Shown one piece after another: positions 26,511 to 45,026 of a DNA stretch of 64,000 nucleotides. The DNA is from Microbacterium sp. (lineage in GTDB: Bacteria > Actinomycetota > Actinomycetes > Actinomycetales > Microbacteriaceae), in assembly GCF_017305435.1 (NCBI RefSeq), contig NZ_JAFKIP010000003.1, positions 62,001-126,000 on the forward strand. Reading direction: 5' to 3'. A program made the translations under genes and the position numbers. The stretch's first letter is position 1. Each line of letters starts with the position of its first letter. Under the pieces are notes generated by a model, which worked only from the letters and a program-made list of their open reading frames with translations, was not told the origin of the DNA and ran no database searches.

Positions 26511-26567
26511 AGCAGAGGCAGCGACGCCCGTGATCGGTTCGCCGATAAACTTCAGCCAGGAGGCAGG

Positions 26568-30039: not shown

Positions 30040-30630
30040 GTGAGAACACCCGACGGTCAGGACATCACCTGGCGTGACGCCGCGCAGGCGGTCGGGTCCG
30101 CGCTGCGCATTGTCCCGACGTTCGTCGCGACACGTTTGGATGACGCCGCGGGCGTCAGGACGTCGCTGACCGCGAGCTACCTTACGGGCGAGGGTCGCTA
30201 CGTCACCCGCGAGGTGACCCACACCGCGCTGCGCGACGACGTCGAGGTCAACTACCCGACGGTCGCGAAGCTCGGCACCCAGGCGATCGTGCAGGCCGCC
30301 GCGCCCCGCTGCATCTTCCTGACCTTGGATCGCGAGGACGACCCCCTCGCGACCTGGATCAGCGTCGATGCGCTCACCACAGCCAAGGGCCGCATCCTGC
30401 CCCCAGCCGTCGCGGCAGAGGTCGTCAAGCGCGGCGTGAGTGAGGCGCGATTGGATGCCATCGAGTTGCTCTACGGCACCGCCGCCCTCGCAGGGCTGCC
30501 GCCTGCGAAGCTGATCCAGGCTGAACTCGGCATCCCGCACCGCACGGCATCCGCATGGATCATCGACGCCCGCGCCGCCGGACGCCTCAAGGGCATGAAC
30601 TTCCACGCCGGTCGACCGGCAGGTGGGTAG
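30040..30630 (+). CDS. hypothetical protein co-transcribed with the integrase
   Basis: This 196-residue protein has an N-terminal mixed fold and a C-terminal helix-turn-helix-like end (PPAKLIQAELGIPHRTASAW) typical of regulators that lie before integrase genes in actinobacterial elements. GTG 30040 is chosen because GGGAGGTG lies nine bases upstream; the earlier GTG at 30028 would sit on top of that site. Its stop overlaps the integrase start, so the two are coupled. Role inferred: control of replication or integration. Confidence 0.65.
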   Translation: MRTPDGQDITWRDAAQAVGSALRIVPTFVATRLDDAAGVRTSLTASYLTGEGRYVTREVTHTALRDDVEVNYPTVAKLGTQAIVQAAAPRCIFLTLDREDDPLATWISVDALTTAKGRILPPAVAAEVVKRGVSEARLDAIELLYGTAALAGLPPAKLIQAELGIPHRTASAWIIDARAAGRLKGMNFHAGRPAGG

Positions 30631-31762
30631 CATTCGCCCCTACACAAGCGCTCAGGGCAAGCGATACGAAGTTCGCTACAGGAAGCCGGACGGGACGCAC
30701 GGCGGTAAGCGCGGCTTCGTTCGGAAGCGCGACGCAGAGCTGTGGCTTGCGGAGATCGAGACCGCCCGCGTGAAGGGCGGGTTCGTCGACCCCCAGGCTG
30801 CACGCATCAAAGTCGACGACCTCGGCAAGGTCTGGCTCGAATCCAAACGCCACTCGATGAAGCCGTCATCGTTCGCGCCCGTCGAGACCGCCTGGCGACT
30901 CCGCGTCCGACCGAAGTGGGGAGCGTGGTCGGTTGCCGACATCCTGCACAGTGACGTGCGCGCCTGGGTCACCGACCTCAGCCAAGAGGTCGGGGCAACC
31001 GTCACCATCCGCACCTACGGCGTACTCGCCAGCATCCTCGACGACGCCGTCTACGACGGGCGCATCGCCGTCAACCCGGCACGCAAAGGCGGCATCGCAC
31101 TCCCCCGCAAAACGAGGAGACGCCACGGCTACCTCACCCACGCGCAAGTGCGCCGGCTCGCGGAGGCATCCGGCGAGCACCGGCTCCTTGTCCTCCTTCT
31201 CGCCTACACCGGCATCCGGTGGGGTGAGATGGCAGCCCTGCGCGTCGAGGACATCGACTTCGCCCGCGGCCGGCTGCACATCTCGCGCAACGCCGTCGAG
31301 GTCCACGGACAGTTCCACGTGGGCACACCCAAGTCGCACGACTCCCGTGCCGTACCCGTTCCACGCTTCATCCTCGACGAGCTCGCGCGCGTCGTCGCGG
31401 GCCGAGGTCGCGACGCGCTCGTCTTCCCCGCGCCCGATGGCGGCTTCATGCGCCGCACCCGAGCGAGCGACGGCTCCAAGTCGTGGTTCAAGACAGCGCT
31501 GCGCGAAGCGGCACTCCCCCTCATGACTCTGCACGATCTTCGCCACACCGCCGCGTCCCTCGCCGTCCAGTCGGGAGCCAACGTCAAGACCATCCAACGG
31601 ATGCTCGGACACACCTCAGCGGCGATGACGCTCGACGTCTACTCCGACCTCTTCGACGACGACCTCGACGACGTCGCCACAGCACTCGACCGCGCGGCGC
31701 ACGCGTCAGCCGCCGCCCCCACCCAGCCGCAGTTCCCGATCGGCGGCGGACTCGGACTCTAG
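30623..31762 (+). CDS. tyrosine site-specific integrase
   Basis: This 379-residue recombinase has an AP2-like arm-binding N-terminus (GSIRPYTSAQGKRYEVRYRK), a core-binding SAM-like domain and a full catalytic domain: R199 (TGIRWGE), H304 and R307 (LHDLRHTA), H330 (MLGHTS) and nucleophile Y340 (LDVYSDL). It should integrate and excise the surrounding element. The start is a GTG overlapping the previous gene by eight bases. A cluster of GGGATCAC repeats lies 210-290 bp downstream and may be its arm sites. The attachment site is not identified with certainty. Confidence 0.92.
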   Translation: MGSIRPYTSAQGKRYEVRYRKPDGTHGGKRGFVRKRDAELWLAEIETARVKGGFVDPQAARIKVDDLGKVWLESKRHSMKPSSFAPVETAWRLRVRPKWGAWSVADILHSDVRAWVTDLSQEVGATVTIRTYGVLASILDDAVYDGRIAVNPARKGGIALPRKTRRRHGYLTHAQVRRLAEASGEHRLLVLLLAYTGIRWGEMAALRVEDIDFARGRLHISRNAVEVHGQFHVGTPKSHDSRAVPVPRFILDELARVVAGRGRDALVFPAPDGGFMRRTRASDGSKSWFKTALREAALPLMTLHDLRHTAASLAVQSGANVKTIQRMLGHTSAAMTLDVYSDLFDDDLDDVATALDRAAHASAAAPTQPQFPIGGGLGL

Positions 31763-32280
31763 ACGAAACCCCGGCGATGTGGCTCGGCCAGTGATCGTTC
31801 CGGGGTCTTCAGGAGAGAGCTTGCGCCGTGGGCTCAGGCGGCCCACGACGCCTCCCCACTGTGGGTGCCGCACGGCCGCAGTCCGCAAGGAGACGCTCGG
31901 CGCGGACCAGGTGTGTCGTGTTCCCCGTCGCCCAGATGCCGTTTCGTCGCCCCGGTCCTGAATCCTCGCAAAGAGGGATCACAAGGGATCACTTGGGGTC
32001 ACAGAACCGCGTGAAATCAAGGGTCCGAGTTCTCAAGTGCTGCACTGGATCACATCGGGTTCACCGCGATTGTTCCCGCGGATGTTCCCGCCGCGAGTTC
32101 CCCTCGTCAGGGTGATTCAGATCGAACGCGGGCCGCTCGCTGCGGGTGCGGGCGATCGACGTGAAGTTATAGCCCGGAGGTGGACACGACGTCGCACTCG
32201 AGGGAGACGCCATACCCCCAGGGTGGTTCACGGTGACCCGAGGGGCCGGACGCTGAGCACGGTTTCCCATCGACGGGTTT
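31763..32280. other. gene-free stretch after the integrase
   Basis: No frame here has a start site and recognisable product. The region holds repeated GGGATCAC boxes (31975-32053) and one copy of a 14-bp sequence found again at 43397. It is the expected place for an attachment site next to an integrase and separates it from the end of the hydantoin operon. Confidence 0.5.
31975..32053. repeat. GGGATCAC boxes, possible integrase arm sites
   Basis: GGGATCAC occurs at 31975-31982 and 31985-31992 (10-bp spacing, one helical turn), followed by GGGTCAC at 31996-32002 and TGGATCAC at 32046-32053. Helically phased short direct repeats beside an integrase gene resemble arm-type binding sites. This is pattern-based only. 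Confidence 0.4.
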
Positions 32281-33225
32281 TCAGCGGGCGACGGGATCGC
32301 CCTCGACGATGAGTTCGGCGATGTCGCGACGAGTGGGCATCATCTCCCAGTCGCCGTCCCCACGGCAGGCGCACGCACCGACCGCTGCGGCGGTGCGCAT
32401 CCGCTGAGCAAGATCACGGCCTTCGAGTCGCTCCGCGAGGTAACCGCCGACGAAGGCGTCGCCTGCTCCCACGGTGTCAGCGACCTCGACCTGGAAGGCA
32501 TCCTGCTGGCACACCGTCTCGCCCTCGAGCGCGTAGGCCCCGCGTTCGCCGAGCTTGATGATGACCTCCCCGGGGCCGAAGGCGGCGATACGGGAGGCGA
32601 GGTCCGCCGTTGCGCCTGGCCCTACGGCGATTGCCGCCTCGTCGTCGCCGGCGAAGACGATATCGGCCAGCGCGAAGGCATGGAGGTACGCTGCGCGCGC
32701 AGAGTCCTCCGCCCACAGCCGCGAGCGGTGATTCACGTCGAACGCAATCGCTGCCCCAGCCGCTTTGGCGTCGCGCGCGGCGTTGAGCACGGTTCTCGCA
32801 AGCACTTCGCTGACAGCCAGGCTGATGCCGGTGAAGTGAAAGATCCTGGCGGACGACAGAGAGCCCGCCGGCACGTCTTCGGGGGTGAGGCGACTGCCGG
32901 CGTTCTCCCCTCGGTAGTAGACCACGCGAGTCCGACCGCGGGCCGGGCGATCCTTGATCATGAGGGCGGTAGGCGCATCCGGATCCACCGTCGCGACCAC
33001 CTCCACGCCTTCTCCTCGAATGGCGCGCACGATCCGCCGCCCGAATGCGTCGTCACCGACCCGGCCGATCCATGTGGTCTTCGCTCCAAGGCGCGCTGCG
33101 GCAATGGCGACGTTGCTCTCTGATCCTCCGAAGCTGATTCCAGCGTCGCCGACGGTGTCGAACCCTCCGGTCCTCGTGGAGTAGACCAATGCGAGGCTCT
33201 CTCCGATGGTGACAAGCCCGCTCAC
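32281..33225 (-). CDS. PfkB-family sugar kinase, 2-keto-3-deoxygluconate kinase-like
   Basis: This 314-residue kinase has the PfkB signatures GGSESNVAIAAARLG near the N-terminus and DTVGAGDAFVGG with the catalytic Asp near residue 255. KDG-kinase-like features (GESLALVY, FDVNHRSRLW, YYRGENAGS) are present. It should phosphorylate a 2-keto-3-deoxy sugar acid or a related sugar. The GTG at 33225 overlaps the aldolase stop as GTGA, so the two are coupled. Together they form a kinase/aldolase pair as in KDG catabolism, placed at the end of the hydantoin operon. Confidence 0.82.
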   Translation of the reverse strand: MSGLVTIGESLALVYSTRTGGFDTVGDAGISFGGSESNVAIAAARLGAKTTWIGRVGDDAFGRRIVRAIRGEGVEVVATVDPDAPTALMIKDRPARGRTRVVYYRGENAGSRLTPEDVPAGSLSSARIFHFTGISLAVSEVLARTVLNAARDAKAAGAAIAFDVNHRSRLWAEDSARAAYLHAFALADIVFAGDDEAAIAVGPGATADLASRIAAFGPGEVIIKLGERGAYALEGETVCQQDAFQVEVADTVGAGDAFVGGYLAERLEGRDLAQRMRTAAAVGACACRGDGDWEMMPTRRDIAELIVEGDPVAR

Positions 33226-33857
33226 CGGGGTACTCCTTCCGCGATGGCCACCGAGGCACGCACTGCCTCAGCGACAGCGCCCGCTCCACGCTCGAGCATT
33301 GCGTTCGACGTAAGCCAGCTGCCGCTGACGGCAGCCACCGCCGGGTGGGCGAGGTGCTCGGCGAGTGTGTGCTGCGTAACCCCACCCGAGGGCATGAATG
33401 CCATGTCCGCGAACACCGACCGGAACGCATCGAGGAGCCTCAACCCGCCGAGGAGGTTGGCGGGAAACAGCTTCACGAGCTGTACGCCAGCGCGACGCGC
33501 GGCAAGCACTTCTGTCGCGGTTGCAACGCCGGGAACAACGGGGACACCCCGGCGCTGCGCGACGGCGATGATGTCGTCCGCGTATGCGGGCGTAACGAGG
33601 AAGGAGGCACCCGCGTCGAGCGCGGCCTCTGCCTGCGCGGCATCGAGCACCGTCCCGGCCCCAACGATGAGATCCCCACCCGCTGCAAGGTCAGCGAGGG
33701 CTCTCATCGCATACGGGTTGCGCAGGCCGACCTCGACGATGCCCAACCCGCCACCCAGGAGCCCCTCTCGCAGCGCGAGCGTGTGATCCGCGTTCTGGGG
33801 CGTGGCCAGCGGCACGAGGCGTTGCCCGGACAGGACGCTGGAGTTCTCGGTAGTCAC
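33222..33857 (-). CDS. KDPG/KHG-type aldolase
   Basis: This 211-residue class I aldolase should cleave a 4-hydroxy-2-oxo acid (such as 2-keto-3-deoxy-6-phosphogluconate) into pyruvate and an aldehyde. The active-site set is visible: E42 in IVEVGLRNP, R46, T69 in GAGTV and the Schiff-base K129 in LVKLFPAN. GTG 33857 is the start. It follows the FCD regulator gene by 41 bp and overlaps the kinase gene. In this operon its 2-oxo acid substrate could come from oxidation of a D-amino acid by the dehydrogenase upstream. Confidence 0.87.
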   Translation of the reverse strand: MTTENSSVLSGQRLVPLATPQNADHTLALREGLLGGGLGIVEVGLRNPYAMRALADLAAGGDLIVGAGTVLDAAQAEAALDAGASFLVTPAYADDIIAVAQRRGVPVVPGVATATEVLAARRAGVQLVKLFPANLLGGLRLLDAFRSVFADMAFMPSGGVTQHTLAEHLAHPAVAAVSGSWLTSNAMLERGAGAVAEAVRASVAIAEGVPR

Positions 33858-33898
33858 TGCTGCTCCTCATCGGTGCGCCCTCGGACGAAGTGCGGCAT

Positions 33899-34723
33899 TT
33901 ACGACCCTCCGTGTGTCAGGGAGAGCAGGTTCGCGAAGAGCCCCTCGCGGTCACGCCTCTTGAAGTCCTCTACCTCTTCAATCAGACGCGACAGGTGCTC
34001 ATCGAGCAGGGCCTGCGCTGTTGCCCCGTCCCGCCGTCGCATCGCCTCGAGAAGGGCCCGGTGTTCATCCGGCGCGTCGTGAACGGTCCCGTGCAGTGAC
34101 GTGACGACGAGAAGGAGCGGGTCGAGGGCATCGAGGGCGTCATAGAGCACGACAGTGCTCAAGGCCTCGAAAAGGGTGCTGCGGGAACACCGCACGAGGA
34201 GCTTGTGGAAGTGGTTCGCGACGTACCCCTCATACGACTCGCCGGCGACCATGCGCCGGTGGTCGCTCAGCGCCGATTCGAGGTCGGCGAAGTCTTCCTC
34301 AGTGCAACGCTCGGTGGCGAGCAGGATCACCTCCCGTTCCAGTCCCCGCCGTGCGCGGAGAAGATCGAGCAACTGGTCAACGTGCTGGATGTCCAGCGCC
34401 CCGGAGAGTCCTTCCCCGCGGCTTCTGTTGCGGATGATTTCCTCAACGAGGATGCGGCCACGTTCGGTGAGGACTCTGCCTTTCCCGCCTGCTGCGGAGG
34501 TGAGCCCGGACTCGTCCAGCTTCGTGAGCAGGCGTGAGACGGTGGGCTCGCTGATGGAGTAGCCCGCTTCCTGCAGTTCTCGCGCGACAAGCCGCGCGCC
34601 CCTCGGCTCGGCGCTTACGGCCAGTATCTCCAACACCGAGACGGTCTCCGGAGAGAAGTGTCCCTCTTCCGCGGGGGCGCGCGCGGGTCGGGCATCCGCG
34701 CGCGCGGACTCCTTAAGCGCCAT
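33899..34723 (-). CDS. FCD-domain transcriptional regulator inside the hydantoin operon
   Basis: This roughly 274-residue regulator has a winged helix of the NrpR/GntR-like kind (SVLEILAVSAEPRGARLVAR ... YSISEPTVSRLLTKLDES) and a C-terminal FCD ligand domain with metal-type residues (LESALSDHRRM, NHFHKLLV, EHRALLEAM, LLDEHLSRL). ATG 34723 gives an 11-bp overlap with the carbamoylase gene; a longer frame to 34783 is less likely. It should sense an operon intermediate and probably binds the 8-4-8 palindrome at 43124-43143 upstream of the first gene. Location inside the operon implies autoregulation. Confidence 0.75.
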   Translation of the reverse strand: MALKESARADARPARAPAEEGHFSPETVSVLEILAVSAEPRGARLVARELQEAGYSISEPTVSRLLTKLDESGLTSAAGGKGRVLTERGRILVEEIIRNRSRGEGLSGALDIQHVDQLLDLLRARRGLEREVILLATERCTEEDFADLESALSDHRRMVAGESYEGYVANHFHKLLVRCSRSTLFEALSTVVLYDALDALDPLLLVVTSLHGTVHDAPDEHRALLEAMRRRDGATAQALLDEHLSRLIEEVEDFKRRDREGLFANLLSLTHGGS

Positions 34724-35684
34724 CGTCGTCCGAACCAGGAAGTGCCCCGACGCGTCGCACGTCGTCTGACCAGCGAGGGTCAACAGGCGCGGTGATCGCG
34801 CCGTAGTGCTCGGGGCGCCGATGATGGGCGAAATTGAACACGTCTCGACGGTACTTCTTCACCATGTCGAGATCGATATCCGCGGTGATTACTTCGTCGT
34901 CACGCGAACTAGCGAGGGCGACGATCTCACCGCTGGGGGCCACGATAACGGAGCCGCCGATCTGCTCGACGCCCTCTTCGACGCCCCCCTTTCCCACCCC
35001 AATGACCCACAGGGAGTTCTGGTACGCGCCGGCCTGCATGGACAGGTGGTTGTGGAACTCCGTGAGGGTGTCGATCTCGGGCAGATGCGGAGTCTTGACG
35101 GGTGTGTTGTAGCCGATGCAGACGATCTCCGCTCGCGCGAGCGCAAGCATCCGGTATGTCTCCGCCCATCTGCGGTCGTTACAGATGGCGAGGCCGAGCC
35201 GTGTCCGTTTCCAATCGACCACAGGGAATCCCAGGTCCCCGACCTCGAAGTAGCGTTTTTCCAGGAGCTGATGCTCGGCGCGCTGGGGTTCCCCGAAGCC
35301 GGGGAGGTGGACCTTGCGGTATTTCAGTGCGACGTCCCCGTGCTCGTCTGCGAGCACGCTGGAGTTGAACAGACGCCCCTCATTGGTGCGCTCTGCGTAG
35401 CCCATCACGACCGCGATGCCGAGTTCGGCGGCGCGCGTGAACAGCGGGGCGACGCGCGCGAATGGCGTGTCCAGATCGTAGTAGCTCAGCAGCTCCTCGC
35501 GATCTTCGATGACCCAGTGGGGGAAGAACGGCACGCTTGCCAGTTCCGGGAAGACGAGCAGCTCGACACCGCGCGCCGATGCCTTCTCCAGGAGGGCGAC
35601 CATGCGTTCGGAGACCTCGTCCGCGGTGTGCCGCCTCTCGACGGGACCCATCTGCGCGGCTCCAACAATCATGCGGCGACTCAT
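34713..35684 (-). CDS. N-carbamoyl-D-amino-acid hydrolase (D-carbamoylase)
   Basis: This 323-residue nitrilase-superfamily enzyme should hydrolyse N-carbamoyl-D-amino acids to D-amino acid, CO2 and ammonia. The catalytic triad is E47 (FPELAS), K124 (KYRKVHLPG) and C168 (AICNDRRW), with the spacing of Agrobacterium D-carbamoylase. The NDRRW after the Cys and the VGKGGVEEG loop also fit that group. ATG 35684 overlaps the racemase stop as ATGA. It takes the product of the hydantoinase encoded two genes earlier. Confidence 0.88.
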   Translation of the reverse strand: MSRRMIVGAAQMGPVERRHTADEVSERMVALLEKASARGVELLVFPELASVPFFPHWVIEDREELLSYYDLDTPFARVAPLFTRAAELGIAVVMGYAERTNEGRLFNSSVLADEHGDVALKYRKVHLPGFGEPQRAEHQLLEKRYFEVGDLGFPVVDWKRTRLGLAICNDRRWAETYRMLALARAEIVCIGYNTPVKTPHLPEIDTLTEFHNHLSMQAGAYQNSLWVIGVGKGGVEEGVEQIGGSVIVAPSGEIVALASSRDDEVITADIDLDMVKKYRRDVFNFAHHRRPEHYGAITAPVDPRWSDDVRRVGALPGSDDDGA

Positions 35685-36427
35685 AGCTGTGCTCTCTCTT
35701 CCACTCCTGCGGTCGCCGACCAGGCCGGCTTGGCGGTTCTGTCTCCCGTGAACGGCTGCGGCGCGACGGTGTCGGTGTTGCGGTGACCGCGCTCGACCAA
35801 CCTGCGCACGCTCTCCGCACCGAACAGGTTGCCGTCGAAGACCGGGACCCCGGTCCTGCGTTCGAGGCGTTCGGCTTGGTCGCTGAATCCCGCGCAGGCG
35901 AGGACGAGGCACTGTGCCCCGCGCGCGAGGAGGTCATCGGCCACCTGGGCGAACCGTGCCGTGACTTCCGCGCTGTCGGCGTTGAGTTCGACCACCGTCC
36001 CGTCCAGGCTGCCGAAGAGCACTCGGTCAGAATCGAGTCCGTTCCGGGCGCAGTGCGCGGCGACTCGGGGCACCACTCGCGTGTCCACGACGATGACGCC
36101 GACGCGTTCTACGGCCTCCTTAGCCGCTAGGAGGGCGCTGGCTCCAATGCCGACGACTGGCTGCGGCACCAGTTCTCGGCAGGCTTCCAGGCCGGGGTCG
36201 TCGAAGCAGGCGATGACGAAGCCGTCGTACTTGTCCTTCGCGTTCCAGACCGTGTCGATGACCGCGCTCGCCGCGATGATGTTGTCTGTCTCACTTTCGA
36301 CGGAGAGCGGCCCCCATGGGACGTTCCGCACGTCGATAGACACCGCCTCATCGAATTCTGCGAGGGCGGCTTCGATCGTCCGCGTCATCTCGGGTGAGGT
36401 GTTGGGGTTGACGACAAGGATGTTCAT
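35681..36427 (-). CDS. hydantoin racemase (Asp/Glu racemase superfamily)
   Basis: This 248-residue enzyme should interconvert D- and L-5-substituted hydantoins, letting a D-selective pathway consume a racemate. The two catalytic cysteines are C74 (VIACFDDPG) and C178 (LVLACAGFS), and the start MNILVVNPNTS is typical of hydantoin racemases. ATG 36427 has GAGAG upstream; a longer frame reaches back into the dehydrogenase gene and is rejected. It is nine bases after the dehydrogenase and overlaps the carbamoylase. Confidence 0.87.
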   Translation of the reverse strand: MNILVVNPNTSPEMTRTIEAALAEFDEAVSIDVRNVPWGPLSVESETDNIIAASAVIDTVWNAKDKYDGFVIACFDDPGLEACRELVPQPVVGIGASALLAAKEAVERVGVIVVDTRVVPRVAAHCARNGLDSDRVLFGSLDGTVVELNADSAEVTARFAQVADDLLARGAQCLVLACAGFSDQAERLERRTGVPVFDGNLFGAESVRRLVERGHRNTDTVAPQPFTGDRTAKPAWSATAGVEERAQL

Positions 36428-36435
36428 GGGTTCTC

Positions 36436-37692
36436 TCACCTTGTGGCGCTGAATCCGGCTAGGTCGATATCGGGTCTGCCCTCGACCATGGCCTCGGCGA
36501 GCAGGCGGCCCGAGACCGGCCCGAGCGTCACTCCCCACATCCCGTGGCCTCCGTTGACGTAGATGTTCTTCGTTCGGGTCTGTCCGACGATGGGCATGCC
36601 ATCACTGGAGATGGGTCGACCCCCGTGCCACACCTCGCGAACCGAATTCCAGTGGGCCATCGGCAGGACGCGGCGGGCGTTCTCCTCCAGGCGGCGCGCC
36701 CCGCGAGGCGAGAATGCACCATTCGGGTCATCGATCTGCATCAGGGTGGAGATCCGCAGGGAATCACCCATTCGCGTCGTCGCGATCTTCGCCTCCGGAA
36801 AATAGAGCATCCCCTGGGGCAGATCGGGAACGTCGACGCGGAGGGAGTAGCCGAAGCCGGCAAGGACCCGTGGGCCCACGCCGTGCATCGTGGTGAGGTC
36901 ATCCAGCCACGCGCCACTGCAGATCACCGCCTGGTCGAAGCGACTTTGTGTTCCGCTCGTCGTCAGCACTTGGATGCCGGAGGAAGGACCTTCGCCCCCC
37001 ACCGGGTCGACCGACTCCACGGACGCGCTCACGAACTCCACGCCCCTGCCGGCAAGTTCGGCACGCAGGGTCTCCATAAGCACGGGCGGCTGCACAAGAC
37101 CTTGGTTTTCGAGCACGACTCCGAAGCGTCCCTCTGCTCGGGCCAACGGCTCCCGCCGGAAGAGCTCCGCCTCGTCGAGGAGAGCGATGTCGAGCTCGAG
37201 CCCTCGACTGGTGACCTGTAGGAGGTCGGAGATCTGAGCGTGCGCGGCATGCTGGGTGCGGAACGCTGAGACGAACGGCGCGCGCTCGAAGCTGAGCGCC
37301 AGGCCCTCGTCTTGCACCCGCTCGAATTCGCTGAGCGCGAGGCGGTCGATGTGCACGAGGCTCTCAACGGAGCGCAGCCACTTGCCCTGGCGGCTGTTCA
37401 TCGCGAACTTTCCCAGGAACTCCACCGACCGCATGCTCACCGTCCGCGGCAGCACCATGAAGGAGTTGCGCTGGAACACGCTCTTGAAGACTGAGGTGAT
37501 GTTCGCCACGCTCGTCAGCGGAACCGACATTACGGGGACGATGTGCCCGGCGTTCCCCCACGATGCATTGCGCAGCTCGTCGAGGGGCTGGCGCTCGTAG
37601 ACGGTGACGTCCGCGCCCCGCTTGGTCAGCTCGTACGCGGTGAAAAGGCCTACCGCCCCTGCACCGACGACTGCCACTGCTTTCTCGGACAC
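36436..37692 (-). CDS. FAD-dependent D-amino-acid dehydrogenase (DadA-like)
   Basis: This 418-residue flavoprotein of the DAO family starts with the FAD-binding fold VAVVGAGAVGLFTAYELTKR and an acidic residue ending the second strand (YERQ). The C-terminus has the family pattern RPISSDGMPIVGQT and VNGGHGMWGVTLGPVSG. It should oxidise D-amino acids made by the hydantoinase and carbamoylase to 2-oxo acids plus ammonia, passing electrons to a membrane acceptor. GTG 37692 follows AGGAG and directly follows the hydantoinase stop. The iminium intermediate released by such enzymes is the usual substrate of RidA, also encoded in this operon. Confidence 0.87.
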   Translation of the reverse strand: MSEKAVAVVGAGAVGLFTAYELTKRGADVTVYERQPLDELRNASWGNAGHIVPVMSVPLTSVANITSVFKSVFQRNSFMVLPRTVSMRSVEFLGKFAMNSRQGKWLRSVESLVHIDRLALSEFERVQDEGLALSFERAPFVSAFRTQHAAHAQISDLLQVTSRGLELDIALLDEAELFRREPLARAEGRFGVVLENQGLVQPPVLMETLRAELAGRGVEFVSASVESVDPVGGEGPSSGIQVLTTSGTQSRFDQAVICSGAWLDDLTTMHGVGPRVLAGFGYSLRVDVPDLPQGMLYFPEAKIATTRMGDSLRISTLMQIDDPNGAFSPRGARRLEENARRVLPMAHWNSVREVWHGGRPISSDGMPIVGQTRTKNIYVNGGHGMWGVTLGPVSGRLLAEAMVEGRPDIDLAGFSATR

Positions 37693-37693
37693 C

Positions 37694-39073
37694 TCAGCTC
37701 CTCACTGCTCGTTCGATGAACTGGCCGTGATGATCTGGCCCCACGTGGCGACCGTCGGAGCCGACGAGAACACCGCGCGAGTACACGCTGTGGATGCGTC
37801 CGCGCACCGCCCACCCTTCCCAAAGGTTGTAGTCCACATTCTGCGTCTGCGTTTCCGCGGACAGGACGGTGGTGGAGTCGGGGTTGAGGAGAGTGAGGTC
37901 GGCGTCCGCGCCGACCCGGATGGCCCCCTTACGGGGGTAGAGGCCGAATGTCTTCGCTGGTTCCGTGGCGATGACCTGCGCGAACTTCTCCAGCGTCAAC
38001 CGGCCCTTGGCCACACCCTCGGAGTACGTCACGAGCACGCGGTTCTCCACCCCGGGCCCGCCGTTGGGGATGTCGCGGAAGTCGTGCCGCCCCTTGTCCT
38101 TCTGACCCACCAGGCACAGGGGGCAGTGGTCGGAGGAGACGACGGAGAGGTCACCCTCACCCAGTGCCTTCCACAACCGCGCCTGGTCTCGTCGGGTTCG
38201 CAGCGGCGGGGTGAGAACGTATTTAGCGACGTCGAAGTCGTCGGAGTCGTACACGGAGTCATCAAGCGACAGGTAGTGCGTGCAGGTCTCCGCGGACACC
38301 GGAAGCCCCTCGGCTCGCGCCTCTTGCACGCGGTCGACCGCTTCTTCGGTGGAGAGGTGGACGAAGTAGGGGGCGGAGTCGGTGAGTCGCGCGATCATGA
38401 TGGCCCGGTTCACCGCCTCCGCCTCTGTCGCGGAGGGACGGGCGAGCTTGTGGTATCGCGGCAGGGTCTTGCCCTCGTCCACGAGCTGCTGCGAGATGGC
38501 GTCGATGACGTCACCGTTCTCCGCGTGGATGCAGATGCGACTTCCCTGGGATGCGGAGGCGCGAAGAACCTCGAAGAGCTGACGGTCATCGACCATGACC
38601 GCGCCCTTGTAGGCCATGTAGACCTTGAAGGAGCTGATCCCATCGTTCACCAGTGACGCCATGTCGGTGGTGATGCTGGGATACCAGGACGAGATGGTGG
38701 CGTGGAAGGAGTAGTCGACCGCGCACTGACCGTACATCTTCTCCGACCACCGCTCGTAGAGGGCCGGCAGAGGCTCGCCCTTGCTTTGAGGGGCGAAGTC
38801 GATGATGGTGGTGGTCCCACCGGCCGCTGCGGCTCGTGTTCCCGTCTGATGCGTATCGGTGGTGTGCCCCAGGCCTGACGGGGAGTCCATGTGCGTGTGC
38901 ACATCTACCCCACCGGGGAGCACCACAAGTCCTGAGGCGTCGATGACCGACTCGGCCCTCGCACTGCCGGGGGGCGCAAGCCTGGCGATGACTCCGTCGT
39001 CGACGAGGATGTCGGTGTCGATAGGGCCGTCCTCGGTCACGACGGTGCCGTTGGTGATGACGAAACTGGTCAT
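37694..39073 (-). CDS. hydA: D-hydantoinase/dihydropyrimidinase
   Basis: This 459-residue zinc amidohydrolase should open 5-substituted hydantoins (or dihydropyrimidines) to N-carbamoyl amino acids. The metal site is complete: H59 and H61 (VDVHTHMD), the carboxylated lysine K150 (SSFKVYMAYKG), later His residues (ICIHAENGD, YFVHLSTEEA) and the Asp of VVSSDHCP. The substrate loop LGHTTDTHQTG fits hydantoinases. ATG 39073 overlaps the RidA stop as ATGA. With racemase and carbamoylase in the same operon, a hydantoin role is favoured over pyrimidine breakdown. Confidence 0.9.
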   Translation of the reverse strand: MTSFVITNGTVVTEDGPIDTDILVDDGVIARLAPPGSARAESVIDASGLVVLPGGVDVHTHMDSPSGLGHTTDTHQTGTRAAAAGGTTTIIDFAPQSKGEPLPALYERWSEKMYGQCAVDYSFHATISSWYPSITTDMASLVNDGISSFKVYMAYKGAVMVDDRQLFEVLRASASQGSRICIHAENGDVIDAISQQLVDEGKTLPRYHKLARPSATEAEAVNRAIMIARLTDSAPYFVHLSTEEAVDRVQEARAEGLPVSAETCTHYLSLDDSVYDSDDFDVAKYVLTPPLRTRRDQARLWKALGEGDLSVVSSDHCPLCLVGQKDKGRHDFRDIPNGGPGVENRVLVTYSEGVAKGRLTLEKFAQVIATEPAKTFGLYPRKGAIRVGADADLTLLNPDSTTVLSAETQTQNVDYNLWEGWAVRGRIHSVYSRGVLVGSDGRHVGPDHHGQFIERAVRS

Positions 39074-39471
39074 GCGCGTGTTGCCGCCTTGCCGGCGCCG
39101 CCGCGAACCGCGGTGCCGATGATCTCGAACCGCAGCCCGCCTGCAAGCGCGACCCCGTAGGTCATGCGGGCGGGGAAGGGCGCGGTGAACCGCGTCCGGT
39201 ACACCCGGTCGAACTCAGCGAAGGAGGCGACGTCGGTGAGCACGCACGTCACCTGCGCGACGTCCGCGAAGCTCAGGCCGTACTCCGCGAGGGTGGCCCC
39301 GAAGTTATCCAGTGCCAGAGCAACCTCGTCCTCAAACCGTTCGGGCAGTTCGCCTTCGGCGCTCTTGCCGAAGTGGCCTGCGAGGTACACGGTGTGTTCG
39401 TCGGCGACGGCGAGGGAGTAGCTTCCTCCCGGCAGGGCGCGGCCTTCGACGGTTTCCAAGTGATGCATCAT
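39070..39471 (-). CDS. RidA-family imine/enamine deaminase
   Basis: This 133-residue protein has the YjgF/RidA fold with VYLAGHFG, LDNFGATLAEYGLSFADVAQ and the strand TYGVAL. RidA proteins hydrolyse reactive imines and enamines formed by flavin- or PLP-enzymes. The canonical active-site Arg region (usually RxxVxVxxLP) is altered to RMTYGVALAGG. This places it in a Rid subgroup other than archetypal RidA, possibly with its own substrate. It lies between the transporter and hydantoinase genes. AAGGA precedes the ATG. Confidence 0.82.
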   Translation of the reverse strand: MMHHLETVEGRALPGGSYSLAVADEHTVYLAGHFGKSAEGELPERFEDEVALALDNFGATLAEYGLSFADVAQVTCVLTDVASFAEFDRVYRTRFTAPFPARMTYGVALAGGLRFEIIGTAVRGGAGKAATRA

Positions 39472-39490
39472 CTGATTCGTTTCCTTCGCT

Positions 39491-40435
39491 TTAGCGGGTG
39501 TTCTTTCGCCCGGTGGCGACTTGCAGCAGAACCGCGGCGGCGATGATGACGCCCTTGATGATGTCCTGCGGGTACGACGGGACGCCCATGAGGTTCATGA
39601 TGTTGCTGATGAGTCCGAGGATGAGGACCCCGACCACGGTGTTCATCACGAAGCCGCGACCGCCGGCCAGGCTGGCGCCGCCGATGACGACCGCGGCGAT
39701 GGCGTCGAGCTCTGAGCCCATGCCCATTCCTGCGCTGGCCGTGGATGTCCGCGACGCGAGGAATACGCCGGCACCGGCGGCGAAGACGCCGGAGAGCACG
39801 TAGGTGGACAGCACGAAGCCCTTTGTCCGCACACCGGCCAGGCGAAGTGCGGTCTCGTTGCTGCCGATTCCGATGACCTTTCGCCCGTAGCCGGTGAAGC
39901 GCTGGACGAAGAGGCAGGCGATAACGACGATCGCCGTGATCCAGATCAGTGGGTATCCCATTTGCGGGCTGGCCAGCACGTTGAGGTTCTGCTCGATCTG
40001 GATGGGCCGGCCGTTGGTGATGAGGTAGGACGTGCCCCGGGCAATGGTCATCACCGCGAGGGTGGCGACGAAGCCTTGGACCTTCCCGAAGGCGACCATG
40101 GCGCCCGAGATCACGCCGAATGCCAGGCCCGTGAGCAGGGCCGCGCCGACGGCGAGCCAGACGTTGACTCCGACGCTCATCAGCGCCGCGGCCGTCGTCG
40201 CGCCCACAGCCATCAGCGACCCGACCGACAGGTCGATGCCGCCCGCTTGGATGACGAACAGCATCCCCAGCGCGACCAGCATGGGCCCCGCCTGTTGAAG
40301 GAGGATGTTTCGCAGATTCATCGGGTCCAGGAACGCGTCCGACATGAACGCGCACGCGACAATCAGCATCACGAAGATGATGAAGATGTTGTTCCTGATG
40401 AGAACTTGTTTGATGTTGATGGTCGTCTTAGGCAC
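39491..40435 (-). CDS. ribose-type (RbsC/AraH) ABC transporter permease
   Basis: This 314-residue membrane protein has about eight to ten helices and the RbsC-family motifs GGIDLSVGSLMAVGA and GIGSNETALRLAG (EAA-like loop), then GGASLAGGRG. It forms the channel of a CUT2-type importer, with the double ATPase and the binding protein encoded just before it. The GTG at 40435 overlaps the ATPase stop. CUT2 systems mostly carry sugars, so its presence ahead of hydantoin enzymes suggests a sugar-like or polar ligand. Confidence 0.9.
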   Translation of the reverse strand: MPKTTINIKQVLIRNNIFIIFVMLIVACAFMSDAFLDPMNLRNILLQQAGPMLVALGMLFVIQAGGIDLSVGSLMAVGATTAAALMSVGVNVWLAVGAALLTGLAFGVISGAMVAFGKVQGFVATLAVMTIARGTSYLITNGRPIQIEQNLNVLASPQMGYPLIWITAIVVIACLFVQRFTGYGRKVIGIGSNETALRLAGVRTKGFVLSTYVLSGVFAAGAGVFLASRTSTASAGMGMGSELDAIAAVVIGGASLAGGRGFVMNTVVGVLILGLISNIMNLMGVPSYPQDIIKGVIIAAAVLLQVATGRKNTR

Positions 40436-41957
40436 GGTCTTCCCGCTTCACTCCCATGGCGTGCTGCATGATTTCTTCCTCGTTTATGTCGGAGCCCGTC
40501 AATTCGGCGACGGTCTCTCCCTCGCGCATGACGTAGACCCGGTCGCACAGTCCGATGACTTCGGGGAGCTCGGAGGACACGACGATCACCGCGAATCCCT
40601 CTCGAGCAAGCGCCCCGATGTTCTTGTAGATCTCGCCTTTGGCTCCGACGTCCACTCCTCGCGTTGGCTCGTCGAGGATGATGAGCTTGAGTTCTCTCGC
40701 GAGCCATTTGGCGACGGACACCTTCTGCTGGTTCCCGCCTGACAGCGACGAGACCGGGTCCTCTATCGAGCCGTACTTCGTGTCGAGCTTGGCGAGGAGG
40801 TCCCGCACCCGCTGGCCCTCCGGCCGCGGGTTGATGAAGCCGACAGCCGTCTGCCCGACCATCGCCGTGTTGAAGCGGATGCTCTGCTCCTGCACGAGTC
40901 CTTGATGCTTGCGGTCCTCCGGCACGAGACCGATTCCGCGGCTGACTGCCCCCCTCGGACCGCGCACATGCAAGCGCTCACCCTCGAACGACACCGTCCC
41001 GGAGGTTGCTCGGTCGGCTCCGAACACCGCACGCATGAGCTCGGTGCGCCCGGATCCGACGAGTCCGGCGAAGCCGACGATTTCGCCGGAACGGGCGGTG
41101 AATGACCCGTTCTTGACGCGCGACCCTGCCCGCAGGTTCTCCACTCGGAGGATCTCGGCGCCGGGCACACGGTCCTTCGGCGGGAACATCTGCTGCAGGT
41201 CTCGCCCCACCATCATCCTGATGAGGCTTTCCTCGGTGACGTCTGCGGTGGGCCTGCTGTCCACCAGCCGCCCGTCCTTGAGCACGGTCAGCCGGTCGCA
41301 GATCTCGAAGAGCTCATTGAGCCGGTGTGAGACGTAGAGGATTGCCACGTCTTCCTCCTTGAGCTTGCGGATCAGCTGGAGGAGGGCGCGCGACTCCGAA
41401 GCGGTGAGTACCGCGGTGGGCTCGTCGAAGACAATCACGCGAGGCGAACCCACCAGCGCTTTGCAAATCTCCACGATCTGCTGTTCAGCCACCGTGAGCT
41501 CTTGGATGCTCTGTCGCGGGTCGATGTGACCGAAGCCAATATCTGTGAGGAGAGTCGACGCGCGTCGCTCCAGACTGCGCCAGTTGATGTACGGGCGGCC
41601 TTTCTGGTGCAGCTCGTCCAGGAACAGACTCTCCACGACGGTGAGGTCGGGAGCCAGCATGAACTCCTGGTAGATGATGGCGATACCGTGGTCTCGCATA
41701 GTGCGCGGGGAGACCGCGTGGATCTCCTCTCCCGCCACCACGACTGTGCCGCTGTCTCGCCGGTAGGCGCCGGCAAGGATTTTGATGAGTGTGGACTTGC
41801 CGGCTCCGTTCTCGCCGATAAGGCCCTGGATCTCCCCGGGACGAAGCGACAGGTCGACATCGCTCAGCGCGTGGATGCCACCGAACTGCTTGGAGATGCC
41901 CCGCATCTCCACCACCGGCGCCCTGCTGCCGCTCATGTGCTCTGTGTTGTCGTTCAT
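40428..41957 (-). CDS. ribose-type (RbsA) double ABC ATPase
   Basis: This 509-residue protein has two ATPase domains. The first is complete: GENGAGKST, Q-loop and LTVAEQQIVEICKAL signature variant, and VIVFDEPTAVL. The second has the degenerate P-loop GLVGSGRTEL and the signature LSGGNQQKVSVAKWL with LILDEPTRGVDVG, as in RbsA, MglA and XylG. It energises the CUT2 importer. It starts at ATG 41957, 19 bp after the binding-protein gene. Confidence 0.92.
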   Translation of the reverse strand: MNDNTEHMSGSRAPVVEMRGISKQFGGIHALSDVDLSLRPGEIQGLIGENGAGKSTLIKILAGAYRRDSGTVVVAGEEIHAVSPRTMRDHGIAIIYQEFMLAPDLTVVESLFLDELHQKGRPYINWRSLERRASTLLTDIGFGHIDPRQSIQELTVAEQQIVEICKALVGSPRVIVFDEPTAVLTASESRALLQLIRKLKEEDVAILYVSHRLNELFEICDRLTVLKDGRLVDSRPTADVTEESLIRMMVGRDLQQMFPPKDRVPGAEILRVENLRAGSRVKNGSFTARSGEIVGFAGLVGSGRTELMRAVFGADRATSGTVSFEGERLHVRGPRGAVSRGIGLVPEDRKHQGLVQEQSIRFNTAMVGQTAVGFINPRPEGQRVRDLLAKLDTKYGSIEDPVSSLSGGNQQKVSVAKWLARELKLIILDEPTRGVDVGAKGEIYKNIGALAREGFAVIVVSSELPEVIGLCDRVYVMREGETVAELTGSDINEEEIMQHAMGVKREDRA

Positions 41958-41976
41958 CGCTTCGTCCCGGGGCCTC

Positions 41977-43047
41977 TCAGAACCCTCGGTCCATGTACTG
42001 GGCGACGTTCTCCTTTGTGATCGCGACGGCCTCTGTCAGCGTCACGAAGTCGAAGTCGTCAGCGGTCTTCTCACCCGAGAGGATCTGAGCCGCGATGTCG
42101 ACGGCGGTCTCGCCGATGAGGTCGGGGCTGTTCAGACCAGTGGCGAAGTACTTGCCGTCCGCGATGAGGGCGAGCGCTTTGGCGGCGCCGTCGGCAGCTG
42201 CCACGATGTCCACGTCGTCCTTGCCGGCGTTCGCCAGCGCGGTCATCGCTCCGAAGAGCATGTCGTCGTTCTCGCCAAAGACCGTGGTGATGTTCGGGTG
42301 CGCAGTGATGATGTCCTCCATCGCCTGAAGGCCGCCGTCCTCAGACCAGTCGCCGAAGCCTTGTGCCACGATCTTGAGCTGCGCGTCGGGGTAGGCCGCA
42401 GATCCGGTGTCCTTGAGTGTCTGCTCCAACTCCTCGGCTTCCTTGAGGGCGTCTGCGGCCGGCTGACCGGTGCGCTGTTCGATGAACCCGGCGAGCAGGC
42501 CCACTCGACGCTGGTAGCTCCCGAGATCCACCTTCGAGCCGCTCAAAATCACACCTTCGATGGGCTTCGTGGTGCTCTGGGCGTAGGCCTCACCGACAAG
42601 CCGGGCGTTCTCGGGGTTGTTCGCGTAGACGTTCGTCACGATCTTCGCGCCTTCAGCTGCTGCATTGTCCACCGCGATCACGGGGATCCCGGCCTCGTCC
42701 GCGAGCGCGATGCTCGGCAACGCCGCTTCCGGCTCCACCGGGTCGATGAAGATGACGTCCTTCTTCTGGGAAATGAAGGTCTCGAGGTTGGACGCCTCCT
42801 GCTGGACGTCGTTCCCGGCATCCAGGACGGAGACGTCCCATCCCATCTCTTCGCCATGCTTCTTGATCGCCTCACCGAGCGCGACAAAATAGGGCGCATC
42901 CTGGGTCTTGAGGGAGAAGCCCACGGAGATGGTCTCCGCACCCCCTACGTCGCCGCCCGTGCCGTCGCTGCTGCAGCCGACAAGGCCGGTCACGGCCATC
43001 GCCCCGGCGGCGGCTACCGCCGCTAGGCGCATCAAAGTGTGCTTCAT
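41977..43047 (-). CDS. ribose-type (RbsB-like) substrate-binding lipoprotein, first gene of the hydantoin operon
   Basis: This 356-residue precursor has a signal peptide and lipobox TGLVGCS. The mature part has the PBP1 sugar-binding pattern 'DAPYFVALGEAIKKHGEEMG', FISQKKDVIFIDPVEPEA and 'AGIPVIAVDNAAAEGAKIVTNV'. It should capture the operon's substrate outside the membrane. AGGAGG stands before the ATG at 43047. A perfect 8-4-8 palindrome lies 77 bp upstream. As the first gene of an 11-gene operon, it marks the promoter end. Confidence 0.9.
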   Translation of the reverse strand: MKHTLMRLAAVAAAGAMAVTGLVGCSSDGTGGDVGGAETISVGFSLKTQDAPYFVALGEAIKKHGEEMGWDVSVLDAGNDVQQEASNLETFISQKKDVIFIDPVEPEAALPSIALADEAGIPVIAVDNAAAEGAKIVTNVYANNPENARLVGEAYAQSTTKPIEGVILSGSKVDLGSYQRRVGLLAGFIEQRTGQPAADALKEAEELEQTLKDTGSAAYPDAQLKIVAQGFGDWSEDGGLQAMEDIITAHPNITTVFGENDDMLFGAMTALANAGKDDVDIVAAADGAAKALALIADGKYFATGLNSPDLIGETAVDIAAQILSGEKTADDFDFVTLTEAVAITKENVAQYMDRGF

Positions 43048-43123
43048 CGTTCCTCCTGGTGGTGTCCTCGTTGATCGCTACCGGGTCATCGCATTCGCTT
43101 TGACATCATCACGATAGCGTCAT

Positions 43124-43143
43124 GTCTATCAGAAGTGATAGAC
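43124..43143. promoter_or_regulatory. 8-4-8 palindromic operator upstream of the hydantoin operon
   Basis: GTCTATCAGAAGTGATAGAC has perfect 8-base arms around GAAG. It lies 77-96 bp before the first gene of the hydantoin operon, in the place of a repressor or activator site. The FCD regulator encoded within the operon is the natural candidate to bind it. Confidence 0.6.
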
Positions 43144-43470
43144 GAGTCGGTGGCGTTCCACCGATATTTCCAAGATGTAAACGATGAGGTGCCGACCGCC
43201 AAGCACGCCACCCGCCCATGGCGTGGGGCGCGTCAGCGCACCGTCCTGCTCATCCACGGGGTCAGGCTTGCCCCCCCCCGCGCCGAGGCAGTCTTCCGTC
43301 AGAACGCCGCTGGCAAGAGCCACGGCGACCGATCTACCGGCCCAGCGAGCCGCCGATTGTGCTCCCTCCCGAGGCCCCCGGCATCGGGATCTGACAAAAG
43401 AGGGATCACAGAGCGAGTTCGTGCGGCTTTACGCAAATCTTACGCAAGCAGGCAACTCTATGAGAAAGCT
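43144..43470. other. gene-free stretch between the operon promoter and tRNA-Ser
   Basis: I see no credible gene here. The stretch holds one copy of AAAGAGGGATCACA (43397-43410), also present at 31970-31983 beyond the other end of the operon, and two copies of TTACGCAA (about 43428 and 43440). Beside a tRNA gene this could be an attachment-site region. Confidence 0.45.
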
Positions 43471-43511
43471 ATGGCCCGCGATCCCAGTGTTTTCAAGGGA
43501 TCTCGGGCCAT
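43471..43511 (-). terminator. hairpin downstream of tRNA-Ser(GCU)
   Basis: Arms 43471-43485 (ATGGCCCGCGATCCC) and 43497-43511 pair with a single mismatch around an 11-base loop. The hairpin begins 10 bases after the 3' end of the leftward tRNA gene and probably ends its transcript. Confidence 0.65.
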
Positions 43512-43520
43512 TTCAGTTCG

Positions 43521-43609
43521 CGGAGACGGAGGGATTTGAACCCTCGGTCCCCGTAAGGGGACTCCACCTTAGCAGGGTGGTGCACTAGGCCTGACTATGC
43601 GACGTCTCC
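43521..43609 (-). tRNA. tRNA-Ser(GCU)
   Basis: Read on the minus strand, the acceptor stem GGAGACG pairs with CGTCTCC, followed by discriminator G. The anticodon arm CCACC-CTGCTAA-GGTGG carries GCU, a long variable arm (CCCCTTACGGGG) follows as expected for serine tRNA, and the T arm reads GAGGG-TTCAAAT-CCCTC. No CCA is encoded. Confidence 0.95.
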
Positions 43610-43706
43610 AGGCGTCCAACGGCCGAAGCCGTGCGAACGCACCCGGCAATCATAACCGGTGCCGACGCTCCCGCCGAACCACGACAGCCGCTGGACGGCC
43701 GAAGGA

Positions 43707-45005
43707 TCAGCGCTGTGCCTGCGTGCAGGTCACCTGCTTGGCGGTCTGGCCGGTGATGGTCGGCGGGAGCGCGACCGGGGTCTCCGTCGCCGCCGCATCC
43801 GTCCCGGCATCCGGCGCCGCGGCATCCGTCGCGGTCGGGTCCGGCGTCGCCGACGGCGTGGCCGGCGCCTGGTCCGCCTCGCCGACGACGGCGGTGCCGT
43901 AGCCGTCGCTCGTCGACCCGGTCAGCTGGAACGGCTGGTTGGCGGCGAGCGCGTCGAAGAGCACCGACGCGGCATCCGTCAGAGGCACGACGCGCGAACC
44001 GTCAGAGGCATAGGCGGTCGGGTACTGCACGAAGGCGATGTCCTCGTACGGCACGGAACGCACGGCCATCGCGATCTGCACCATGCGCTGCGGGTTGGCC
44101 AGAGAGTTGCTCAGCACGAGCTGCCCGTTCGTCACCTGCTGCACGGCGGTTGTCGCGAGGTTCAGGAGCGTCGCGGGGTTGCCGAGCACGCCGCCGGACT
44201 GGAGCTTCCGCACCATCGAACTCATGAACTGCTGCTGGTTCGAAATGCGGCCGAGGTCCGAACCATCGCCGATCCCATGGCGGATGCGCAGGAACTGGAG
44301 CGCCTCGACGCCCTGGAGCGTGTGGGTACCGGCCGTGAGGTTGAGGCCCGTGTGATCGTCGCTGATGTCGTCCGCGACGCAGACGTCGACGCCGCCGATG
44401 GCGTCGGACATGCTGATGACGCCCGTCCAGCGGATCGCCGCGGCGTACGTGATGTCGACACCGGTGAGCTGCTCGACCGTAGCCACCGAGCACGCCAGAC
44501 CGCCGTACATGTACGAGACGTTCAGCATCTGCGCACTCATCGCCGAATACTGGGTGCCGTCCTCCCCCGTGCACGCCGGGATCGGGACGATCATGTCGCG
44601 AGGGAAGGAGACGACCGTGACCCGCCGCGGCTCGTCGGAGATGTGCACGAGCATCGTGACGTCGTTGCGCTCGCCGTCGGTGTCGCCCGCCTGGCACGCG
44701 CCCGACAGAGCCGTGTTCGGCCCCTCACACGAGTCAGTCCCCACGAGCAGCATGTTCACGCCGCCCTCGATCTCGCCGATCGACGGGGGCAGCTGCGAAT
44801 CGTCGTCGCCGATCGAGACACCGGCCGCCTCGACGGCGCGCGCGGCATCCCACACCGCAAACGCACCGACCGCGCTCACGCTGATGACGGCGACCGCGAC
44901 GATCGCACCGAGCACCGTGAGCACCTGCAGGAACGGGTTCGGGGAGCGGAGGATGCCGTGCCGTGCAACGGGCGTCCGTCGCGCGCGATCACTGCGTGCG
45001 CTCAC
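43707..45005 (-). CDS. LytR-CpsA-Psr (LCP) family cell-wall glycopolymer ligase
   Basis: This 432-residue membrane-anchored protein should attach teichoic-type or other glycopolymers to peptidoglycan outside the cell. One helix (FLQVLTVLGAIVAVAVISVS) follows a basic N-terminus. The LCP domain has NMLLVGTDS, RNDVTMLVHI, VVSFPRDMIVPIP, GGVDVCVADD, LQFLRIRHG and DLGRISNQQQFM, with the conserved arginines that hold a polyprenyl-phosphate. The C-terminus is a Pro/Thr/Ala-rich tail ending with a lone Cys. GTG 45005 follows AAGGA; the longer frame would run into the tRNA gene. Confidence 0.9.
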   Translation of the reverse strand: MSARSDRARRTPVARHGILRSPNPFLQVLTVLGAIVAVAVISVSAVGAFAVWDAARAVEAAGVSIGDDDSQLPPSIGEIEGGVNMLLVGTDSCEGPNTALSGACQAGDTDGERNDVTMLVHISDEPRRVTVVSFPRDMIVPIPACTGEDGTQYSAMSAQMLNVSYMYGGLACSVATVEQLTGVDITYAAAIRWTGVISMSDAIGGVDVCVADDISDDHTGLNLTAGTHTLQGVEALQFLRIRHGIGDGSDLGRISNQQQFMSSMVRKLQSGGVLGNPATLLNLATTAVQQVTNGQLVLSNSLANPQRMVQIAMAVRSVPYEDIAFVQYPTAYASDGSRVVPLTDAASVLFDALAANQPFQLTGSTSDGYGTAVVGEADQAPATPSATPDPTATDAAAPDAGTDAAATETPVALPPTITGQTAKQVTCTQAQR

Positions 45006-45026
45006 GGGTGTCCTTTCGACGAAAAG

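Follow-up and report, generated by a model that had tools for sequence, protein, structure and literature searches.

Why would one operon join enzymes that open hydantoins to an importer and a kinase/aldolase pair typical of sugar metabolism? The question is raised by a 64,000-nucleotide stretch of a Microbacterium sp. genome (assembly GCF_017305435.1, contig NZ_JAFKIP010000003.1, positions 62,001 to 126,000), called the window below. Eleven co-directional genes, all on the minus strand, run there from position 43047 to 32281 in the following order:

41977-43047, minus strand: substrate-binding protein of a CUT2 importer (Peripla_BP_4; family models; nearest kin found are rhizobial proteins and PDB 4ry9)
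40428-41957, minus strand: ATPase of a sugar ATP-binding cassette (ABC) importer, with two ABC domains (family models; 51% identity to rhizobial ATPases)
39491-40435, minus strand: permease of a sugar ABC importer (BPD_transp_2; family model)
39070-39471, minus strand: Rid-family imine/enamine deaminase (Ribonuc_L-PSP; family models)
37694-39073, minus strand: D-hydantoinase with a changed, more polar gate loop 1 (TIGR02033; family model, alignment)
36436-37692, minus strand: DAO-family flavoenzyme, DadA-like, presumed D-amino-acid dehydrogenase (family models; below the DadA model cut-off)
35681-36427, minus strand: hydantoin/allantoin racemase family protein (Asp_Glu_race; family model; two cysteines kept)
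34713-35684, minus strand: N-carbamoyl-D-amino-acid hydrolase, or D-carbamoylase (CN_hydrolase; family model; E47, K124, C168)
33899-34723, minus strand: HTH_12-FCD transcriptional regulator (family model)
33222-33857, minus strand: class I aldolase of the 2-keto-3-deoxy-6-phosphogluconate (KDPG)/2-keto-4-hydroxyglutarate (KHG) type (family model; E42, R46, K129)
32281-33225, minus strand: PfkB sugar-acid kinase of the 2-keto-3-deoxygluconate (KDG)/2-keto-3-deoxygalactonate (KDGal) type (family models, nearest solved kin)

On balance, we consider it probable from gene families and neighbourhoods that these genes act as a single operon that breaks down a 5-substituted hydantoin with a polyhydroxylated side chain, or an N-carbamoyl-D-amino-sugar acid derived from it, by way of a KDG-like phosphate. 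Whatever is said here of the substrate of the operon is what we infer. With the likely starts of the racemase (36427), carbamoylase (35684) and regulator (34723) genes, the ten junctions comprise gaps of 19, 19, 1, 8 and 41 bp and overlaps of 8, 4, 4, 11 and 4 bp. The initial annotation had described an eleven-gene co-directional operon with the same ends and gaps of at most 42 bp, which holds, together with many 4-base overlaps, which are found at three of the ten junctions; it had named neither the Rid deaminase nor the regulator, both of which are among the eleven genes. Because the run is tight and consists of complete, family-assigned genes, the operon is not a chance effect. Simple scans of 31400-45300, which are weak in GC-rich DNA, gave no sigma-70-like site, and four terminator-like sites, all on the plus strand (mean of shuffles 5.5). 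An inverted repeat, CTATCA-cttc-TGATAG, was spotted by eye upstream of the operon at 43126-43141; it is a possible operator of the FCD regulator.

The hydantoin enzymes were assigned by family and by residues. The D-hydantoinase scores 566 bits with TIGR02033 (curated cut-off 393), and all six metal ligands (H59, H61, K150, H183, H239 and D315) are present and invariant in an alignment of three operon copies. The carbamoylase best matches solved D-carbamoylases (340 bits to 8i99; next proteins below 91), and its Glu-Lys-Cys triad is invariant in three sequences, as are C74 and C178 of the racemase. The latter matches 3qvj at 80 bits and an allantoin racemase at 61 bits; by its sequence it is a protein of the hydantoin/allantoin racemase family and qualifies as a predicted hydantoin racemase. 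The catalytic residues that had been noticed by eye in these three enzymes are thus borne out by alignments, which supplied the positions; the roles are those given in PMC7175128 or generally assigned to such residues. Some of the same matches could be read as signs of pyrimidine or allantoin breakdown, with an allantoin racemase in place of a hydantoin racemase and a dihydropyrimidinase or allantoinase in place of the hydantoinase: TIGR02033 bears the name dihydropyrimidinase, and an allantoin racemase is among the racemase matches. We regard this as very improbable, and both kinds of breakdown were rejected on the strength of the carbamoylase match, of the allantoinase models (290 bits, against 566 for TIGR02033) and of the content of the eleven genes, which include no dihydropyrimidine dehydrogenase or ureidoglycolate gene.

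A first hint of the side chain comes from the hydantoinase. Gate loops of such enzymes shape side-chain choice, according to PMC7175128. In all three operon copies gate loop 1 reads HTHMD(S/A)PSG.GHTTDTH; the GHTTDTH motif is present in none of 36 other aligned hydantoinases (reference included, some of them near-identical), and Met63, Phe65 and Phe159 of the reference are replaced by Ser/Ala, Ser and Val, respectively. The altered, more polar loop hints at a polyol-like substrate.

The importer points in the same direction. With 129.6 bits, its binding protein falls far below the ribose-protein (RbsB) cut-off of 337, so that of the ribose-type importer described initially CUT2 stands and ribose does not. 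Outside the operon family, the closest importers in plasmid records and PDB are rhizobial CUT2 importers (identities of 38-39% for the binding protein, 51% for the ATPase and 43-48% for the permease). In two annotated rhizobial loci, genes for short-chain dehydrogenase/reductase (SDR) and glycerol dehydrogenases, an FGGY kinase and a HAD phosphatase, and a divergent eda gene, adjoin the importer, and no hydantoin gene was found in the rhizobial importer loci. Our reading is that these are polyol loci rather than ribose ones. The best solved relative of the binding protein is PDB 4ry9, both by sequence and as top match of the predicted model (mean predicted local distance difference test, pLDDT, 79.7); its ligand is presumably D-talitol. 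Such kin hint at a polyol-like substrate as well.

At the other end of the operon, the aldolase scores 175.7 bits with TIGR01182 (cut-off 156), and K129 and E42 are invariant in all three sequences compared; we take E42, R46 and K129 to include the Schiff-base lysine and the acid/base glutamate. The kinase reaches 210 and 199 bits with the KDG and KDGal kinase models (cut-offs 440 and 400, respectively) and is of KDG type by its best solved kin, which are KDG kinases; N165, R167, W171 and D256, residues of presumed functional importance, are kept in all three sequences. TIGR01182 covers KHG as well as KDPG aldolases, and the aldolase might instead be a 4-hydroxy-2-oxo-acid enzyme of KHG type whose substrate is the oxo acid derived from a simple hydroxylated amino acid (e.g. 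4-hydroxyglutamate), with the kinase employed otherwise. This appears improbable: the genes of aldolase and KDG-type kinase share 4 bp, two other genomes (G100 and Arthrobacter sp. H5, see below) likewise pair the aldolase with a kinase, and the importer kin reside in the loci that we read as polyol loci. A further idea, to which the sugar-type importer at the head of the operon lends itself, is that kinase and aldolase act on a sugar that is N- or C-glycosidically bound in a nucleoside-like or spiro hydantoin. We hold this to be extremely improbable, as no glycosidase or phosphorylase is among the eleven genes and as KDG-type kinases and KDPG-type aldolases are, we presume, not ribose enzymes. 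The spiro-nucleoside hydantoin once speculated upon finds no support, because a spiro C5 has no hydrogen and cannot be racemised.

For a polyhydroxylated 5-substituted hydantoin, the route might be as follows. The CUT2 importer would take up the compound, the racemase would make both C5 forms usable, the D-hydantoinase would open the ring to an N-carbamoyl-D-amino-sugar acid, and the D-carbamoylase would free a D-amino acid with a polyol tail; for these three enzymes family and residues are observed and the substrate is conjectured. The DadA-like enzyme would oxidise the D-amino acid to an imine, and Rid would hydrolyse the imine to a 2-oxo acid. Following phosphorylation of the polyol tail by the KDG-type kinase, the KDPG-type aldolase would release pyruvate (hydroxypyruvate, if C3 bears a hydroxyl) and an aldehyde phosphate, and the FCD regulator may sense a pathway intermediate. 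Classical KDG needs a 3-deoxy amino acid, with a side chain beginning with CH2; the 2-oxo acid may be of this 3-deoxy kind, as the initial annotation supposed, or may bear a C3 hydroxyl. The polyol or sugar-like side chain suggested in the initial annotation receives hints from the importer kin, the hydantoinase gate loop and the kinase kin.

If the genes work together, relatives should tell. Three other genomes hold informative loci, and a Rid gene is present in each of the four (window included). In G100, which belongs to another genus of the family, the regulator (45% identity), hydantoinase (58%), DadA-like enzyme (43%), racemase (42%) and carbamoylase (60%) recur, with kinase (35%) and aldolase (41%) adjoining the hydantoin genes. 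Directly after its aldolase gene lies that of a thiamine pyrophosphate enzyme (PRK08266 family, above cut-off; L006 13091-14725), which might process the aldolase cleavage product. KH17, of the Ruaniaceae, has a contig that begins inside the ATPase gene and continues with permease, Rid, hydantoinase, dadA, racemase, carbamoylase and FCD regulator in the order of the window, with 4-bp overlaps from Rid through carbamoylase and identities of 47-73% (ATPase 61%, permease 72%). In Arthrobacter sp. H5, the genes for kinase, aldolase and carbamoylase (61%) stand in a row, and the other strand carries a DgaE-family ammonia lyase (183.6 bits, below the cut-off of 385.3), an IclR-type regulator and Rid. 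A lyase of this type fits a 2-amino-2-deoxy sugar acid such as glucosaminate rather than a 3-deoxy one. In a single frame of 873 amino acids in this one draft genome (L010 6759-9380), a KDG-type kinase domain is fused to a domain of amidohydrolase type (PRK09061, 195 bits, cut-off 340), which by eye looks like an N-acyl-D-amino-acid deacylase. The link between the hydantoin chain and the kinase/aldolase pair, which the initial annotation had singled out, thus has a second instance in G100 and a partial one in H5.

The pairs themselves differ between genomes. While hydantoinase and carbamoylase of the window and G100 share 58-60% identity, their kinases share 35% and their aldolases about 40%, and the kinases and aldolases of G100 and H5 are only 29-41% like those of the window. 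The G100 and H5 kinases are 47% identical to each other and 43-49% identical to the kinase of a uronate-like locus elsewhere in the window genome, the aldolase of which is 60% like that of H5. Among the kinases compared, the closest to that of the window (48%) is an H5 kinase from another cluster, where by eye enolase-family dehydratase-like, SMP-30-like and alpha-galactosidase-like genes give a galactonate-type look. Trees of 8 and 10 rows do not unite the three pairs (window, G100 and H5); as these trees are weakly supported, it is from the identities that the case for separate recruitment is made, suggesting that different lineages acquired their pairs independently. Different pairs at the same neighbours would mean that function, and not common descent of a block, holds the genes together.

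These comparisons also bear on whether two pathways merely share one regulator, i.e. salvage of D-hydantoins and D-amino acids on the one hand, and on the other a separate polyol or sugar-acid branch, made up of importer, kinase and aldolase, which makes no use of the salvage product. KH17 holds the hydantoin part without the pair, kinase kin occur in ordinary-looking sugar-acid clusters (by eye), and the loci of the importer kin yielded no hydantoin gene. Nevertheless, the eleven genes include no dehydrogenase or dehydratase for converting a sugar into a 2-keto-3-deoxy acid; G100 and H5 again combine the carbamoylase with a kinase and an aldolase, each time a different pair; and in KH17 the hydantoin genes are still accompanied by ATPase and permease. 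Two separate pathways are, in our view, rather unlikely.

How widespread is the arrangement? The hydantoin core, like the gene set, is rare and patchy in distribution. (The following counts include the centre genome; samples overlap, and only some first-look candidates were scored per genome.) Racemase matches at 1e-30 came from 3 of the 299 genomes sampled in the family, the window genome and G100 among them, and carbamoylase matches at 1e-60 from 2 of 394 genomes of the class, 2 of 247 of the genus and 5 of 197 of the family of H5. For the regulator, 5 of 396 genomes of the order matched at 1e-25: its own, G1258 (an 8939-base contig that appears to be the KH17 one again) and those with loci L107, L108 and L109. 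The stretches fetched around the regulator in L108 and L109 contain none of the hydantoin genes of the operon. Hydantoinase matches at 1e-150 numbered 1 in 101 (KH17 itself), 1 in 11 (G100 itself) and 15 in 336 genomes, and 14 of these 15 are taken as ordinary hydantoinases because their scores are 502-517 bits and that of the window protein is 941. In the locus L107 (7432-9963, genome G1033), a related regulator (36%) has a Rid (48%) and a hydantoinase-like protein of distant similarity (34%) as neighbours, a hint that regulator, Rid and amidohydrolase form a more general combination.

A carbamoylase scan of named genome contigs covered the best 80 of 570 confirmed relatives, of which KH17 and H5 were the nearest two listed. 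With 9 others, this gave 89 rows or 88 distinct loci (L007 and L014 share one contig), the window not counted; some flanks are short because only 67 of the 89 extend to at least 15 kb. Kinase and aldolase occur within 10 kb of the carbamoylase in 2 of the 89 rows listed, and both belong to the three rows in which the carbamoylase is at least 57% like that of the window. Partial sets were also encountered: G712, of the same genus, has only hydantoinase and carbamoylase of the operon genes, and G064 only carbamoylase-hydantoinase-racemase, whereas L118 and L119 gave no kinase or aldolase match and contain a deacylase-like gene, a carbamoylase and a distant DadA-like gene. In G349, a carbamoylase in which the contig ends adjoins a CUT2 ATPase and permease (36-37%), which favours neither side. 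Plasmid records gave no racemase match at 1e-20, and 10 of them matched the hydantoinase at 1e-100, all below 60% identity. Searches of open-licence literature, at the level of titles and abstract openings, turned up no description of such an operon.

Several observations weigh against a single operon for a polyhydroxylated hydantoin. i) In G100 the kinase gene is on the opposite strand and the importer is a different one, of amino-acid type by eye; moreover, it was the racemase search that brought this locus in, not the scan with the carbamoylase, and the threshold of 57% was set post hoc, with the rows already seen. ii) In KH17 eight operon genes are present without the pair, the regulator being followed by IS-like genes (by eye; IS, insertion sequence) and then by the contig end, so that, as far as the draft shows, the pair is dispensable or was lost there. 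The assembly contains one KDPG-type aldolase, next to a different kinase and a LacI-type regulator; this pair was rejected as the operon's own. iii) In H5 hydantoinase, racemase and DadA were not found at the carbamoylase locus. iv) The DadA-like protein, a firm member of the DAO superfamily (PF01266), reaches 168 bits with PRK00711 (cut-off 383). As both it and the kinase score below the exact models, they are named by nearest kin only, and the proposed chain of racemase, D-hydantoinase, D-carbamoylase and DadA stands by family and residues except for this last name. v) A serine in gate loop 1 is found in some of the 36 other hydantoinases, too. vi) The window genome has a second KDG kinase/aldolase pair, in the uronate-like locus (by eye). 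vii) If the substrate were a 2-amino-2-deoxy acid, the DadA product would have a C3 hydroxyl and be cleaved to hydroxypyruvate, which is not the classical KDG reaction. viii) The core is rare, and we know of no natural polyhydroxyalkyl hydantoin. As regards the synteny check called for initially, the outcome is mixed: G100 passes, KH17 lacks the pair beside its hydantoin genes, and H5 has the pair and carbamoylase without a hydantoinase there; as a whole, the earlier interpretation is partly supported.

The patchiness raises the question of how the genes travel. The following features bear on it:

43520-43542, minus strand: 3' end of tRNA-Ser(GCT), probable attachment site
30623-31762, plus strand: tyrosine recombinase (Phage_integrase), separated from the end of the kinase gene by 518 bases
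1868-4915 of the window: relaxase, on the element
11492-13339 of L149: coupling protein, on the element

The tRNA end is repeated with one mismatch at G000:C7:30018-30040, 75.5 kb away in the same genome, with an identity run of 22 bases. A third, weaker copy with two mismatches occupies C7:284427-284449. In addition, 4 kb outside the far copy there is a separate gene for tRNA-Ser(GCT), at C7:25994-26085. Genes for a TrwC relaxase, a TraG/VirD4 coupling protein, a single-stranded DNA-binding protein, a ParA-like protein, the tyrosine recombinase, a serine resolvase and IS transposases lie between the two copies; the gene of the tyrosine recombinase stands 12 kb away from the tRNA end and not at the element boundary. 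From the repeat and this gene content, the operon probably sits at the tRNA end of an integrative conjugative element, on which the gene set would move, and this fits its patchy distribution. The element also carries a Type ISP restriction-modification-like protein (window 5655-8798) and a protein with a Zeta-toxin-type kinase domain (window 26530-27801). About 8 kb from the operon, genes for an amidohydrolase, an NMT1-type binding protein, a nucleoside hydrolase and a LacI regulator lie close together (window 17106-24164), perhaps as a base/nucleoside salvage locus.

Hydantoin racemase, D-hydantoinase and D-carbamoylase are known mainly from industry, where they are used to make D-amino acids; their natural role is, to our knowledge, largely unclear. 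If the proposed operon function is true, this enzyme set gains a natural substrate class, one that can be synthesised and tested, and an unrecognised natural pool of carbamoylated or cyclised amino-sugar acids is hinted at. It is conceivable, although we would stop short of calling it probable, that polyhydroxyalkyl hydantoins or N-carbamoyl-D-amino-sugar acids serve as natural carbon and nitrogen sources through an undescribed route, which would lead as a KDG-like phosphate into glycolysis and in which varied kinase/aldolase pairs are set on the same core and spread by a conjugative element.

Compared with known systems, the operon shares with hyu clusters the racemase, D-hydantoinase and N-carbamoyl-D-amino-acid hydrolase families with their catalytic residues, and differs in adding the CUT2 importer, Rid, the DadA-like enzyme and the kinase/aldolase pair. 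With the rhizobial CUT2 loci it has importer kin in common, as well as eda, divergent beside the importer in the two annotated records; a difference is that SDR and glycerol dehydrogenases and an FGGY kinase are encoded there. The D-altritol and galactitol pathways of Agrobacterium, reportedly described by Wichelecki et al. 2015 (cited in PMC12193009), offer a comparison for them. In the D-glucosaminate (dga) pathway, the DgaE ammonia lyase and DgaF aldolase lead from a D-amino sugar acid to a 2-keto-3-deoxy acid (phosphate) that is cut by a KDPG-type aldolase. The same logic, from amino-sugar acid to KDPG-type aldolase, appears here, and H5 has a DgaE-family lyase beside carbamoylase, kinase and aldolase. 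The eleven genes include no DgaE-type ammonia lyase or phosphotransferase system, which sets the operon apart from dga; its deamination would be oxidative, and the amino group would arrive as a hydantoin or N-carbamoyl group. Finally, the De Ley-Doudoroff and KDG pathways use the same families of kinase (KDG or KDGal) and aldolase (KDPG or the corresponding galactonate enzyme, KDPGal), whereas the oxo acid of the operon would derive from an amino acid and not from dehydration of an aldonate.

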